A stretch of 34,385 nt of DNA from a virus: positions 1-34,385 of IMG/VR virus record IMGVR_UViG_3300048784_000056. One strand, 5' to 3'. The notes below the pieces were generated by a model that saw only the letters and a program-made list of their open reading frames with translations, made no database searches and was not told where the DNA came from. The translations under genes were made by a program, and so were the position numbers. Shown one piece after another: positions 2,679 to 7,790 of this stretch. Within the stretch, counting starts at the first letter, position 1. Every line of letters begins with the position of its first letter.

Positions 2679-2960
2679 GTGAGCGACTTCTTCTTCATTC
2701 CGGCTGCGGCCAATCAGGTCACCGTCAAGAAATCGACGATCGTGTTCGTAATGGACCCGACGTCAGAGGTGCTGATCACCGATCAGATCCCGCCGTCAAT
2801 TCCGAATGATCCAGGAGTCGATGACACCGATCAGCGCGTGATCTGCGTGATGCGCGGCGAGGACGATGAACGCAACGCGGTGAAAGTGCTATTCAACGTT
2901 TTTCCGACCGTCGAGCAGATTCGGGCGCTGATGGTTTACCTGCAGCACTGGACTCCGTAA
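2679..2960 (+). CDS. Conserved small phage protein of unknown function
   Basis: A 93-residue soluble protein that I do not recognise. It begins with GTG at 2679, preceded by a good GGAGG (2669-2673), and its TAA overlaps the tailspike start by one base (TAATG). It is acidic in the middle (DPGVDDTDQR) and has no Cys pair, signal peptide or membrane segment. Its tight coupling to the tailspike gene suggests a virion or tail-assembly role, for example a spike chaperone, but nothing in the sequence proves this. The TnpB element ends just before its ribosome-binding site, so insertion has spared translation but may have separated it from an upstream promoter. Confidence 0.65.
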   Translation: MSDFFFIPAAANQVTVKKSTIVFVMDPTSEVLITDQIPPSIPNDPGVDDTDQRVICVMRGEDDERNAVKVLFNVFPTVEQIRALMVYLQHWTP

Positions 2961-4834
2961 TGATGGTGATGCGCATTTTTGCGTTATTGCTGCTAGTTTT
3001 GGGCCCGGTGGCGAGCCGTGCGCAGGTCGCCGGCAATGTCGGCATGGTCAACCTGCAATCCGGTTTGACCTACACGCTGCAGAACCCCGACTGCGATCCG
3101 GAAGGGCGCCGCGTGGTGGTGCTCTCGAATACGAGCAACGTGACAGTGACGCTGCCGCAAGCAGGCTCTTCGGGCGCATTTTCGCATGGGTGCGTGATCA
3201 ACATCATCAATCCGACCGCGACGGCGACGGACACAATCAACGTCACCACTTCGACGATCAACGGTGCAAACTCTCTGCAGATCTTCCCAGGCGCGTGGGT
3301 CAGGATCTACACGGATGCGCAAGGCAACACGGGCAACTACTGGGCGCAGATCACCAGTGCTCCAACACTCGGCTATGCCAACGTAAAAGACTTCGGTGCG
3401 AAATGTGATTATCAGACAGATGATACGGTGGCGATAAATCATGCGCTCGCCGCGACGGACCCGGTTCGAGGGGGAGATGTTTGGTTTCCGCAAGGTGGTT
3501 GCTACATTACCGGTAGCCTCGTTGTGAACCATCCCAACGTTCACTTGCAGGGGGCGGGTGAATACGCAAGCACTATCATCACAAATACCCAGCCGTTCGA
3601 CGTGATCACCTTAAACGCGTCGTACTTTCAAATGACGGACCTTGGAGTTATCCAATATGCTTCTCCGGGCTCAATGCGGTCTTGGGTCATGTACGACAAT
3701 ACTTCTGCCGGCTCTGGTGGTGATCTATTTGAAAATATCAACGTAGGTGGTGGTGATAGCGGTTTCTACCTAAAAGGTGGCATCAATACATTTCGTAACA
3801 TCAATATGCGCGGGATTGGCCCCGGTTCCGGCATTGGCATGGAGTTCGATGGTCCCAATGTCGCTGTCATCGATCTATACAATATCTACATGGAAAATGC
3901 TGCGAACGAGAATGCTCAAGCGGGGATTTTTATCACTGGTGGCGTCGATTTTGTATTTGACCATCTTCAACTCCAAAAAATGGGTTCCCCTTTGATTGTT
4001 CAAGCAGCTCCGGGGTTCGGAGCGATAAGCGGAGCGTTTATTTCAAATAGTTACTTTGACACATCGGTAGGTCCGGAAGTGCTTCTGGATGGGACCAATG
4101 GATCGGTCAATCGGATATCCTTTGTCAACTCGTGGTTCAGTTCGTCGGGCACGAGTGCAGGGTTGAAGATGATAGGATCGGTGGATGATATTTCCGTGTC
4201 TGACTCTCAGATTTTCTTCAACGCGGGTTGTGGAATCGATGCCACCCAAACGACTTATAATCAGGGTTTGCTGATAACTGGCAATACCATCGCTAATAAC
4301 GCCAGTTTTGGTGTATGTCTTGGTAATCAAAGCAAAGTCCGGGTGCTGAATAATAGCATTGCGCTTGGTGGAACCGTCGGTCCCAACGGAGGAGGCATTT
4401 CTATTCCCGAAAGCAGCACCGCCGATTATATTTCGATCATCGGCAATGATCTATCCGGTAACAACGGCGTAGCACTACAAAACGGGTCAAACGGGTGGCA
4501 CAACGTTATTAAAAACAACACGGATGGATATGTAATGTCCGCGGCTAATTTGTCATCGTGTGGCACGAACCCAACATTTGGCACTATCTCCAGCACCTAT
4601 AGCGGCACAGTGACACCTGGCTCCGACGCCACCGAATGTGTCATCACCTTAGAGCCGGGCATGTTTGGCCAAACGCCCAACGTCTCTGTGTCGACCTATG
4701 GAGATAATATCATCAGCGTCGGAGGCGTAAACACGGAGCTCACGGGCTCAGGTGCGTCCGCTACTTTTGTTACCAGCATTACCATCGGGTGGACTGGATC
4801 TCCCTCAACGTTTTCATATTTGGTCTCGAATTGA
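2960..4834 (+). CDS. Tailspike-like beta-helix protein with signal peptide
   Basis: The 624-residue protein has three parts. Residues 1-22 resemble a Sec signal peptide (hydrophobic IFALLLLVLGPVA, cleavage near SRA-Q). Residues ~25-135 form a domain shared with the fibre at 18379-19818: a (D/N)CDP(E/Q)GR(K/R)VV motif, then STINxxxxLxIxPG, then GNYWA. From ~138 the motif VKDFGAKCDYQTDDTVAINHAL is the usual opening of pectate-lyase-type right-handed beta-helices used by phage spikes to bind or cut surface polysaccharide. Asn- and Gly-rich coils follow to ~530. The last ~90 residues match the C-terminal domain of the gene at 4-927. GC content falls where the helix begins (about 3375). Depolymerase activity cannot be assigned. 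A second ATG follows directly after the first. Confidence 0.8.
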   Translation: MMVMRIFALLLLVLGPVASRAQVAGNVGMVNLQSGLTYTLQNPDCDPEGRRVVVLSNTSNVTVTLPQAGSSGAFSHGCVINIINPTATATDTINVTTSTINGANSLQIFPGAWVRIYTDAQGNTGNYWAQITSAPTLGYANVKDFGAKCDYQTDDTVAINHALAATDPVRGGDVWFPQGGCYITGSLVVNHPNVHLQGAGEYASTIITNTQPFDVITLNASYFQMTDLGVIQYASPGSMRSWVMYDNTSAGSGGDLFENINVGGGDSGFYLKGGINTFRNINMRGIGPGSGIGMEFDGPNVAVIDLYNIYMENAANENAQAGIFITGGVDFVFDHLQLQKMGSPLIVQAAPGFGAISGAFISNSYFDTSVGPEVLLDGTNGSVNRISFVNSWFSSSGTSAGLKMIGSVDDISVSDSQIFFNAGCGIDATQTTYNQGLLITGNTIANNASFGVCLGNQSKVRVLNNSIALGGTVGPNGGGISIPESSTADYISIIGNDLSGNNGVALQNGSNGWHNVIKNNTDGYVMSAANLSSCGTNPTFGTISSTYSGTVTPGSDATECVITLEPGMFGQTPNVSVSTYGDNIISVGGVNTELTGSGASATFVTSITIGWTGSPSTFSYLVSN

Positions 4835-4854: not shown

Positions 4855-5043
4855 ATGCTGCAAGATGATGCTTCGAAGTCTGCCCTGTGCATTTCCTGCG
4901 CAGCAGACCGGTGCGCGACGTGCCCGCTCAGCGCTGCTCGATCGATGCCACCGGTGCCCCCGACCGCAAAACCGCTGCCGGATCATGTCTTCAGAGCGCG
5001 CGGCATCCAAATCGGTTTGCGGACGTGTCTCGATCCGACCTAG
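4855..5043 (+). CDS. Small Cys-rich protein upstream of terminase
   Basis: The 62-residue product has a tight Cys cluster (CISCAADRCATC), a plausible metal-binding knuckle, and a Pro-rich middle. The ATG at 4855 has the strongest ribosome-binding site in the region: AGGAGGA at 4841-4847, eight bases upstream. It lies just before the large terminase and overlaps its start in another frame, the usual place for a small terminase or packaging accessory. Its size and Cys cluster do not look like a classical small terminase, so no function is given. The strong start signal is the main argument that it is real; codon use is not decisive. Confidence 0.55.
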   Translation: MLQDDASKSALCISCAADRCATCPLSAARSMPPVPPTAKPLPDHVFRARGIQIGLRTCLDPT

Positions 5044-7790
5044 TTCATCTCGCCAAAGCCGAACTCGCCAAGCGCGACCGGATGCGCGCGATGAAAGACG
5101 AGGCGGAAAAGGACTTCCTGGCGTTCGTGCGGATGATGTGGCCGGTGCTGGAGCCGGAGCGGCCGCTGATCGAAGGGTGGTTGCTCGATCTGCTGTGCCT
5201 GCCGTTCGAGACCGAAGTCATCACCGAAGACGGCCCCATGGCGATCGGCCAATATGTGGAAGATGGCTGCCGTGCGCGGGTTCTAAGCTTCGACCACTTG
5301 TCCGGTAAGCCTGACTGGAAAAACGTCAAGTTTCGCCAAAAGTCGCAAGGGAAACCGCTGGTTAAACTCTCTCTCTGTGATACGATGCTGTCGATGACTG
5401 ACGATCATCCGGTGTTCGTGAAGGGGAGGGGATATGTCAGAGTTTGCGAAGTCAGCGCCGGGGAAACGCTCTTATGTGTGCGAAAATTGCGCCGCGACAT
5501 TCCTGCGCTGGCCTGGATCGGGGAAAAACGCCTATTGCAGGCAGTCTTGTCATTATCAGCATCGCACGAAGCTGGATCAGGATCGCAAGCGCCGGAAATG
5601 CGAAGGATGCGGCAAGATTTTCTCGCCGGTGCTCAAGAGAACCAGATTTTGCAGCATGGCTTGCTCGGGCAAGCGGAGGCAACTGCCCGAAACGAGAAAA
5701 TGCCCGAACTGCGGGAACTCCAAAAGCTGGGGGGCGAACCAGTGTCGCAAGTGCGATGCGATGTCTCGCATTACCGGCACGGAAGGGTGGTGCGAAAGCT
5801 GTGGCAAAACATTATGGATTACCGCCGCAAGGCAGCGCAGATTTTGCGGTCTGGCCTGCTTTGGGCTTGGAAACCGAGGCGAGAACAATGCCGGGTTCAT
5901 CCATGGAGAGTGGACGAAGAAATATCCGATCGAATTCTGGCAAATGCGGCTCAAAATCCGCAAGCGCGATGGACGGGCTTGTTTCCTTTGTCATGCCAAG
6001 GACGAGCTTCACATCCATCACATAGATCGGGACGTGGAAAACAACGAAGCGGCCAACTTGGTGACGCTTTGCCGTATTTGCCATCAGACCCAACACGGTC
6101 CGTTGGAGAGGTCTATACCGTTGTCGAATCACCTGTTCTCGCTGTTGAGCGAGAAATACGGATACCCGATACGGTATATAACCTCGCTGTAGAAGGTAAT
6201 CACAACTACTTCGCCAATGGTATATTAGTCCACAACTGCGACGTCTTAATGGCTATTTCTGATGGAGACATGACGCGCGTCAGCATCAACGTGCCGCCCG
6301 GCAGCACCAAGAGTACGCTACTGAACGTACTTTGGCCGGCGTGGGAATGGGGGCCGTGCAACCGTCCGGCGCTGCGCTATATGTCGGTCAGCTACTCGAC
6401 TGACGTTCCGGTGCGCGACAATCTGCGCTTCGCGCGGATCCTGAAACATCCGGTCTACCAGTCGTGTTGGGGCGATCGCGTGAAGATCACGCGCGAGGGC
6501 GCGGAATGGGTCGGAAACGACAAAACCGGCTTCAAGATGGTGACTTCGACCTCGGGCGGCACGACCGGGTTTCGCGGCGATCGCCTGTTGCTGGACGACT
6601 TGAACAATCCCGTGAACGTCGAATCCGACATCGTGCGTGCTTCGACGAACAAATTCATTCGCGAAGTGATGCCGGATCGCCTCAATGATTTGAAGCGGTC
6701 GGCGATTGTCAATCTGCAGCAGCGGACGCACGAAAATGATGCGACCGGCACGCTGATCGAACACGGTCAGGGCTATCAGTACGTCTGCGTGCCGATGGAA
6801 TTCGATCCGCTGCGGATCTGCCGCGTAGTGCTGCGGCATGACGATTTCGGCAATCCGGAGCGCGTCTGGGTTGATCCTCGGGCACTGGACGAACACGGTC
6901 GGCAGTTGCGCGGACTGTCTTTGAACGAGCGCGGCGAACCAAAGGTGGTCGACGGTTCGCCGATGGCAATGGCGGCTGGCGAGTCTTGCTGGCCGGAGCG
7001 GTTTGACGAGGAAGCAACGGCCAAGCTAAAGCTGGAGAAAGGCGACTACGCCTGGTCTGCGCAATACCAGCAGATCCCCGGCGTTCGCGGCGGCGCGATC
7101 ATCAAACGCGACTGGTGGAAGCTTTGGCAGGGCGCGGATTACCCTGAACTCGGGACTGTCGTGGTTTCGCTGGATACCGCGATCGAAGAGAGCGAGATAA
7201 ACGACTACAACGCCTGCACGGCATGGGGTGCGTTTGCGGGCAAGAACGGCGAGCCTCAGTTCTTATTGCTGGAGGCTTGGCGGGATCGGATGTCGCTCGC
7301 CGACTTGGTGCGCCGCGTCGCCGAGACGTGCCGGAAGCGAAAGGCGGATTACTTGCTGGTTGAGCGCAAGACGCGCGGGAAGGATGTGTCGGACGAAATC
7401 TTGCGGCTGTATGCGCGGACGTCATGGAACACGGAGCTGATCATTCCGCAGGGTGACAAGGTGTCGCGGCTCAGAGCGGTGTCGCATTTCTTCAGCGGCG
7501 ACGCGCGAAAGATACCGGACGGTTTCGATGAAGAGAGCAACGCCAAATACCGAATTGACTGGTCCGGCGGGGTGGTGTTCGCGCCAGACCGCGCATGGGC
7601 CGACGAAGTGATCTCGGAGGTGGCAAGTTTCCCGTATGGCGCAAATGATGACTATGTCGACTCGGTGTCGCAGGCGCTGGGCTGGGTGCGCAAAAACGGC
7701 GTCGTGTGCCGGAAAGTCGAGTATGAAGAGGCTGAAGAGGACCGGATGCGATATCGTAAGCCGGTAGGCGTGCCTTACGCGATACGGTAG
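5025..7790 (+). CDS. terL: Terminase large subunit precursor with intein
   Basis: This is the DNA-packaging ATPase/nuclease. Outside the intein it shows GWLLDLL|CDVL, Walker A PPGSTKST at about 6294-6317, a Walker B-like RLLLDDL near 6580, and nuclease-domain acids in VSLDTA (near 7173), LLVERKTRG and NDDYVDSVSQAL. The reading frame is open from 4887, but family members usually begin close to SRSDLVHLAKAELAKRD. GTG at 5025 therefore gives the most reasonable start; its ribosome-binding site is weak and translation may be coupled to the overlapping ORF ending at 5043. The spliced product would be about 574 residues. The interrupting 347-residue intein sits before the Walker A, at a conserved position. 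The portal gene follows after 11 bases. TAG at 7788-7790. Confidence 0.9.
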   Translation: MSRSDLVHLAKAELAKRDRMRAMKDEAEKDFLAFVRMMWPVLEPERPLIEGWLLDLLCLPFETEVITEDGPMAIGQYVEDGCRARVLSFDHLSGKPDWKNVKFRQKSQGKPLVKLSLCDTMLSMTDDHPVFVKGRGYVRVCEVSAGETLLCVRKLRRDIPALAWIGEKRLLQAVLSLSASHEAGSGSQAPEMRRMRQDFLAGAQENQILQHGLLGQAEATARNEKMPELRELQKLGGEPVSQVRCDVSHYRHGRVVRKLWQNIMDYRRKAAQILRSGLLWAWKPRREQCRVHPWRVDEEISDRILANAAQNPQARWTGLFPLSCQGRASHPSHRSGRGKQRSGQLGDALPYLPSDPTRSVGEVYTVVESPVLAVEREIRIPDTVYNLAVEGNHNYFANGILVHNCDVLMAISDGDMTRVSINVPPGSTKSTLLNVLWPAWEWGPCNRPALRYMSVSYSTDVPVRDNLRFARILKHPVYQSCWGDRVKITREGAEWVGNDKTGFKMVTSTSGGTTGFRGDRLLLDDLNNPVNVESDIVRASTNKFIREVMPDRLNDLKRSAIVNLQQRTHENDATGTLIEHGQGYQYVCVPMEFDPLRICRVVLRHDDFGNPERVWVDPRALDEHGRQLRGLSLNERGEPKVVDGSPMAMAAGESCWPERFDEEATAKLKLEKGDYAWSAQYQQIPGVRGGAIIKRDWWKLWQGADYPELGTVVVSLDTAIEESEINDYNACTAWGAFAGKNGEPQFLLLEAWRDRMSLADLVRRVAETCRKRKADYLLVERKTRGKDVSDEILRLYARTSWNTELIIPQGDKVSRLRAVSHFFSGDARKIPDGFDEESNAKYRIDWSGGVVFAPDRAWADEVISEVASFPYGANDDYVDSVSQALGWVRKNGVVCRKVEYEEAEEDRMRYRKPVGVPYAIR
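5196..6236 (+). other. Intein (347 residues) in terminase, class 1
   Basis: All canonical splicing residues are visible in the terminase frame. Block A starts with Cys1 in CLPFETEVITEDG (5196). Block B has T-x-x-H in MTDDHPVF. Block F is VYNLAVEGNHNYFANG, and block G is ILVHN followed by Cys+1 (6237). Removal joins ...WLLDLL to CDVLMAI, a normal terminase sequence. Between blocks B and F about 620 bases are open in this frame but encode no recognisable LAGLIDADG or HNH motif here; an HNH gene occupies the same bases in another frame. Splicing activity is inferred from motifs. Confidence 0.9.
5434..6192 (+). CDS. HNH endonuclease with four zinc fingers, nested out of frame in the intein
   Basis: The 252-residue protein is read in a different frame from the terminase/intein that encloses it. 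Residues 14-145 carry four Cys4-type fingers (pairs near C16/C19, C56/C59, C90/C93 and C120/C123, with partners at C35/C40-region, C73/C77, C104/C107 and C138/C142). Residues ~170-222 are a clear HNH nuclease: R-K-R-D-G-R-A-C-F-L-C, then LHIHHID with H195/H196, NNEAANLVTLC with N208, and CRICH with H217. The ATG at 5434 has its own ribosome-binding site, AGGGGAGGGG (5422-5431). Its first ~18 codons overlap the end of intein block B and its last ~30 overlap the block F region. Homing of the intein is the likely role, as with in-frame intein endonucleases, but here the enzyme would be made separately. Confidence 0.88.
   Translation: MSEFAKSAPGKRSYVCENCAATFLRWPGSGKNAYCRQSCHYQHRTKLDQDRKRRKCEGCGKIFSPVLKRTRFCSMACSGKRRQLPETRKCPNCGNSKSWGANQCRKCDAMSRITGTEGWCESCGKTLWITAARQRRFCGLACFGLGNRGENNAGFIHGEWTKKYPIEFWQMRLKIRKRDGRACFLCHAKDELHIHHIDRDVENNEAANLVTLCRICHQTQHGPLERSIPLSNHLFSLLSEKYGYPIRYITSL

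Follow-up and report, generated by a model that had tools for sequence, protein, structure and literature searches.

The viral DNA studied here, IMG/VR record IMGVR_UViG_3300048784_000056 (positions 1 to 34,385; this whole stretch of 34,385 nucleotides is referred to as the window), carries in its gene for the large terminase subunit, TerL, an intein over which a second gene, encoding an HNH endonuclease, is written in another reading frame. Very probably this is a cis-splicing intein of the class 1 type, and its homing endonuclease, encoded by a nested gene offset by +1, is produced through internal initiation as a free protein. The computed evidence for this reading comprises the two coding frames and the recurrence of the layout; stops are avoided in the intein frame, and the HNH frame is under purifying selection. 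The splicing fold is predicted to be intact, and alleles of the host gene that lack the intein exist. An original prediction, made from the letters of the window alone, had proposed both the intein and the separate HNH protein, and the features concerned are as follows.

4887-7790, plus strand: TerL open reading frame (ORF) including the intein (phrog_38 terminase large subunit, E 4.7e-69)
5196-5492, plus strand: N-terminal splicing half of the intein with Cys1, block A and block B TDDH (TIGR01445 and PF14890 matches; predicted local distance difference test, pLDDT, 91-95 over residues 1-90)
About 5397-5408, plus strand: block B motif TDDH, intein residues 68-71
5425-5429, plus strand: Shine-Dalgarno-like GGAGG, with a 4-base spacer to the HNH ATG
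5434-6192, plus strand: HNH endonuclease gene, 252 amino acids, +1 relative to TerL and wholly within the intein (phrog_1271, E 2e-23)
5493-6107, plus strand: intein middle as read in the TerL frame; open, predicted to be disordered, constrained by the HNH frame
6108-6236, plus strand: C-terminal splicing half with blocks F and G, ending in ANGILVHN (TIGR01443; pLDDT 90-94)
6237-6239, plus strand: Cys+1, the first C-extein residue; the same Cys is present in the empty site of intein-less relatives

The intein and its nested HNH gene

The TerL frame is continuous and stop-free over 4887-7790; its longest ORF begins at GTG 4887, and the real start may lie closer to GTG 5025. Within this frame the intein runs from Cys1 at 5196 to the Asn of an HN dipeptide ending at 6236, followed by Cys+1 at 6237. 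The ORF and the profile matches confirm that it is complete, with blocks A, B, F and G, Cys1, TxxH, His-Asn and Cys+1 uninterrupted over 5196-6236, as had been proposed. When the whole protein was compared with profiles, the intein models TIGR01443 (E 4.5e-9) and TIGR01445 (E 0.0027) matched at opposite ends of the intein. Both the N- and the C-terminal intein models are matched by all ten aligned family members, in which C1, T68, H71, H346 and N347 are invariant. The sequence marks of a class 1 intein are present, i.e. Cys1 with block A, TxxH in the form TDDH, and a VHN/C junction (a slash marks the splice point here and below). AlphaFold models of ten family members gave the intein frame high pLDDT for residues 1-99 and 305-347, and values below 50 over most of residues 100-304. 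The ordered part superimposes on the Mtu RecA intein (2in0) with Z 23.0 and a root-mean-square deviation of 1.3 Å over 136 residues, and the NrdJ-1 split intein is the closest solved intein by sequence. The models predict that the HINT fold is present and that the splicing domain is normal around a disordered middle. Intein-less TerL alleles with the exact insertion site were sought and found at L101, L102, L103, L141 and L153 (loci are given by their L numbers); there the site reads AI/CDHLEAV-like, and the insertion is precise, at a conserved TerL site upstream of the Walker A motif.

The HNH protein has four 4-Cys zinc-finger-like modules followed by the HNH domain, i.e. an HNH motif together with DNA-binding modules, as HNH homing endonucleases have. 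The PHROG 1271 match, and the GGAGG with its 4-base spacer, bear out the earlier assignment of zinc fingers, HNH domain and a ribosome-binding site of its own to the separate frame 5434-6192. The ORF is intact, and the zinc Cys and HH/N/H residues are conserved among HNH relatives at about 40% identity. The predicted model of the protein has a mean pLDDT of 80, and its comparison with the PDB gave weak matches to the HNH core and nothing better. The endonuclease is not an in-frame domain of the intein, since it lies in +1 and the intein frame across it is predicted to be disordered. It overlaps splicing-domain code roughly over 5434-5492 at its start (about 59 bases) and over 6108-6192 at its end (85 bases); the claim that true splicing-domain code is overlapped at both ends agrees with the AlphaFold-ordered halves, which reach into the HNH gene. 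Both the Shine-Dalgarno (SD) sequence and the ATG are formed from the intein codons for K-G-R-G-Y-V (AAG GGG AGG GGA TAT GTC, 5421-5438). At three other loci (L176:1636-2493, L187:2992-3720 and L002:2601-3524) the stop of the nested HNH gene lies beyond the C-terminal splice junction, and the end of the HNH tail is coded by the C-extein.

From these features we infer splicing, internal initiation, cleavage and homing in the following manner. Ribosomes reading TerL would make a precursor of N-terminal TerL, intein and C-terminal TerL, in which the intein middle would be an unstructured by-product of the HNH codons, and the two folded halves of the splicing domain would excise the intein and restore TerL. 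Other ribosomes would begin at the internal SD-ATG (5425-5436), which is carved from conserved intein codons, and produce a free zinc-finger HNH nuclease of about 28 kDa. The nuclease would cleave TerL alleles that lack the intein, at the empty site or close to it, and the entire element would be copied during repair; judged from sequence comparison, the patchy distribution of the element is consistent with homing by the HNH protein.

Selection on the two reading frames

The openness of the intein frame was assessed by permuting synonymous codons within each HNH gene, with protein and codon usage kept, and counting stops in the other frames. In the window, the TerL frame over the HNH gene has 0 stops against 8.7 expected, and 0 of 2000 shuffles were stop-free. 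The original prediction had cautioned that all three forward frames are open over 5444-6025, which is true, but across the whole HNH gene the third frame contains 4 stops (5.8 expected) and the intein frame none. Across 51 non-redundant nested loci, no stop occurs in the intein frame, where 216.5 were expected, while the third frame is at chance, with 721 stops against 692 expected. Alternate frames are also at chance in 16 split-intein loci that carry the same HNH family (118 vs 120 and 231 vs 253 expected). This control set was initially labelled free-standing and contained many split inteins; the statistic is unchanged by the new label, because the host frame there need not be open. Chance openness of the intein frame is ruled out by the synonymous shuffles.

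Selection on the HNH frame is seen in the phase of mismatches between related loci, which fall mainly on intein position 3 before the HNH gene, on HNH position 3 inside it and on host position 3 after it. Counts at host positions 1/2/3 are as follows.

L075/L076: N-terminal part 19/6/43; middle 23/9/5 (host 1 = HNH 3); C-terminal part 5/2/17
L053/L095: N-terminal part 37/24/111; middle 22/76/33 (host 2 = HNH 3); C-terminal part 9/6/29
Window vs 8 relatives: N-terminal part 482/423/638; middle 875/631/585 (host 1 = HNH 3); C-terminal part 388/359/536

Within the window, the peak of GC by codon position likewise shifts from host position 3 to HNH position 3 in the intein middle. The phase switch of substitutions shows that both frames are under selection, and the HNH frame is under purifying selection. 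Since HNH position 3 sites are position 1 or 2 of the intein codons, the intein middle is largely free to vary, stops excepted. The phase switch and the stop avoidance confined to the intein frame, together with the recurrence described below, support the earlier claim that a separate HNH protein is encoded in an overlapping frame and that the intein frame is held open at the same time.

Some of our data weigh against this interpretation. The relatives of the window are only about 40% identical in HNH, so that its own frame-specific ratio of nonsynonymous to synonymous substitution saturates. SD support is uneven: an SD of at least 4 bases precedes 35 of the 54 nested HNH starts, against 39% of matched controls, and one of at least 5 bases is found at 16 of the 54, against 14%, with 19 of the 54 having none at all. 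The nested loci were, moreover, defined partly by the openness of the host frame; a count free of this ascertainment took in all 88 loci found through HNH similarity, of which 52 have an open alternate frame where about 5 were expected. At L086:3001-3522 the nested HNH frame is broken with the intein frame still open, so decay does occur. Homing endonucleases decay once homing is saturated, and the break at L086 is as expected if nested HNH genes do the same.

Recurrence and other states of the HNH gene

A tblastn search of annotated phages with the HNH protein returned three records (two of Gordonia phage Clown and one of Synechococcus phage S-EIV1), with matches inside genes annotated only as terminase, where the HNH is out of frame and the intein intact. 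Scans of IMG/VR gave eight distinct loci with an intein at the TerL site of the window and the HNH likewise in +1, and the layout is thus common to all eight distinct relatives found with an intein at this site.

Same-site +1 loci: L096=L180; L097/L099=L182-184; L100=L177/178; L176; L179; L181; L185/186; L187

The search for relatives with the same overlap was in this way successful, and it extended to a second HNH family. At L188 a nested HNH lies at a different TerL site, Walker B, and a scan of genome contigs for the type-1 HNH gave no close relative. The second family (type-2), in which the HNH precedes the zinc fingers, occurs nested in dozens of further TerL inteins; most of these sit at the TerL nuclease motif, and the usual frame is +2, with some loci in +1. 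Its nested cases include the isolate phages TJE1 and Highwayman and the phage genome record LS06; at these loci, as in Clown and S-EIV1, TerL is the sole annotation. The nested layout extends beyond TerL, since L214:210-4934 is a DNA polymerase III alpha ORF with an intein (FFG/C ... HN/SYGFNKSHATSYG) and an out-of-frame HNH at 2917-3387. Recurrence in dozens of divergent phage loci indicates a real and apparently overlooked type of mobile element. The TerL ORFs at L023:200-3850 and at L091 and L094:315-3740 contain two apparent inteins each, a Walker A intein (GGGK/L...HN/T) with an in-frame LAGLIDADG-like segment and a nested-HNH intein at the nuclease motif.

The same HNH is also found in other states. 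Many of the type-2 loci without a contained HNH are split TerL inteins, with N-terminal TerL and intein-N, an HNH gene and a C-intein ORF of its own; they lie at the nuclease-motif site that many nested inteins occupy. At L033 the C-intein ORF has its own ATG (3600), which overlaps the HNH stop, and L063 and L067 are split as well.

Split TerL inteins: L028, L031-L033, L046, L055-L057, L060, L063, L065-L067, L073, L082, L083, L085, L092, L093

HNH genes beside an intein-less TerL are present at L035, L059 and L081 and in SN1, Poludnitsa and EauM-23, and the HNH is fused in frame within the intein at L199:1846-4395 (TerL) and L208:826-4275 (portal-like protein). The maximum-likelihood tree calculated for the type-2 HNH intermixes loci in the nested +2, nested +1, split and free states, with at least 14 changes, but many forks are weak and the well-supported branches force fewer than 14. 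The tree suggests a recurrent origin, and repeated transitions between these states, in one direction or the other, are likely. It is tempting, with slightly more doubt than confidence, to regard nested dual-coded HNH inteins as a widespread, recurrently formed class and as the intermediate by which free HNH genes colonise and then fracture inteins. In such a series a free HNH beside TerL would become overprinted in a continuous intein, which would then give rise to a split intein with the HNH between its halves.

Alternative explanations and comparison with known systems

HNH proteins are said, in work by Kala et al. from 2014, to take part in phage DNA packaging, and some type-2 homologues stand free beside an intein-less TerL. 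The HNH protein might then be an accessory packaging nuclease that assists the terminase and is merely encoded in a TerL intein, not a homing endonuclease. We find this unlikely, as the HNH lies within inteins of many divergent phages, at several TerL sites and also in DNA polymerase III alpha (L214), the same families occur in split inteins and in frame in inteins, and the distribution is patchy, with TerL relatives that lack the intein at this very site. Such a multi-site, multi-state and patchy distribution is the pattern of a mobile element. It is very improbable that ribosomes enter the HNH frame from TerL by programmed frameshifting, which would give a fusion of TerL-N, intein-N and HNH. 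Frameshifting is known in phages, and a few codons ahead of the ATG are open in the HNH frame (5422-5434), but the stop in this frame at 5419 leaves scant room for a shift before the ATG. In addition, the HNH gene of the window, like that of many relatives, starts with an SD-ATG, the same HNH family forms a separate ORF between the intein-half ORFs in split loci, and offsets of both +1 and +2 exist.

The intact HNH gene of the window, its zinc and catalytic residues conserved at the identity given above and substitutions concentrated at HNH codon position 3 make it highly improbable that the HNH is a decaying relic or a chance ORF and that the intein frame alone matters, even if the general decay of homing endonucleases after saturation and the broken gene at L086 speak for such a view. 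Splicing of a phage terL transcript with a neighbouring homing endonuclease gene has been documented in ICP1 (PMC10448857), and removal of the insertion as RNA would make the intein-like frame incidental. This possibility is negligible: no Rfam intron match at the gathering threshold was obtained in the window or seven related loci, the splicing domain is conserved and predicted to fold, and the frame is kept free of stops, a constraint that an intron would not impose. A conventional in-frame HNH intein, masked by compensating indels from assembly or sequencing error, is hardly conceivable either. A single contig could carry such errors, and related in-frame HNH inteins exist (L199, L208), but the same offset is found in eight distinct loci at this TerL site, the HNH is out of frame in dozens more contigs and in isolate genomes (Clown, S-EIV1, TJE1, Highwayman, LS06), and it overlaps the splicing-domain code instead of abutting it. 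Compensating indels, which the original prediction had named as its possible refutation, can for practical purposes be dismissed, since an offset of this kind recurs in independent contigs and in isolate genomes.

The cis-splicing intein with a nested endonuclease gene can in some respects be compared to several known systems. With group I introns that carry HNH or other homing endonuclease ORFs it shares a free-standing endonuclease ORF in a self-splicing element of an essential phage gene; there, however, splicing occurs at the RNA level and a second frame need not stay open. Conventional endonuclease inteins have a HINT splicing domain with the endonuclease between blocks B and F, also in phage TerL, but there the endonuclease is an in-frame portion of the intein polypeptide, whereas it is here a separate out-of-frame gene. 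TerL inteins of cluster J mycobacteriophages were reported to encode HNH (PMC3706429). Contrary to this report, the endonuclease of the TerL inteins of cluster J phages LittleE and Thibault was found to be in frame and LAGLIDADG-like. Dassa et al. reportedly described in 2009 'fractured genes', in which the two halves of a split intein flank a free-standing endonuclease gene. The likeness is a free-standing endonuclease between intein-N and intein-C, and the nested and split states have the type-2 HNH family and the TerL site in common. In fractured genes, however, the host frame is broken up and each half is a protein of its own, as at L033, L063 and L067, where host and intein are interrupted around the endonuclease gene, while in the window a continuous intein is overlapped by the endonuclease in another frame.

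The original prediction knew of no standard class with this layout. An out-of-frame HNH without an intein had in fact been published, as the ShiLan element, an insertion in a phage DNA methylase (Arsenault, Gosselin and Gogarten 2025, PMC11855218). There too a zinc-finger HNH lies in another frame of a host gene whose own frame is open, and homing is presumed, but according to the authors there is no intein or intron splicing domain and no ribosome-binding site, and the host gene is non-essential (PMC11855218). In the window, by contrast, the splicing domain is complete and the host gene is expected to be essential. The layout is, as shown above, not unique to the window either. What stands is the combination: in the open-access literature no account was found of an endonuclease encoded out of frame within an intein, subscription literature being outside the search, so that an earlier description is possible.

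A nuclease hidden in another frame escapes intein surveys and gene callers, because intein endonucleases are normally described as in-frame domains. The design uncouples nuclease production from splicing, yet it forces a stop-free second frame over the entire enzyme gene, and nested HNH inteins are thus an unusual natural case of large, repeated dual coding. Since the same HNH family and TerL site occur in nested and split states, the origin of split inteins with free-standing endonucleases is directly testable, and new cis and split inteins for protein engineering may be obtained.

ShiLan-like out-of-frame HNH genes were also observed in C-5 cytosine DNA methylase ORFs at L193, L200, L203, L204, L211, L215, L217 and L219; no intein motif was found in these ORFs, and their methylase family differs from that of ShiLan. 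At L015 (Gordonia phage GodonK), 2501-2977, an HNH-like match lies in a dense tRNA array, where a short ORF alone is annotated.

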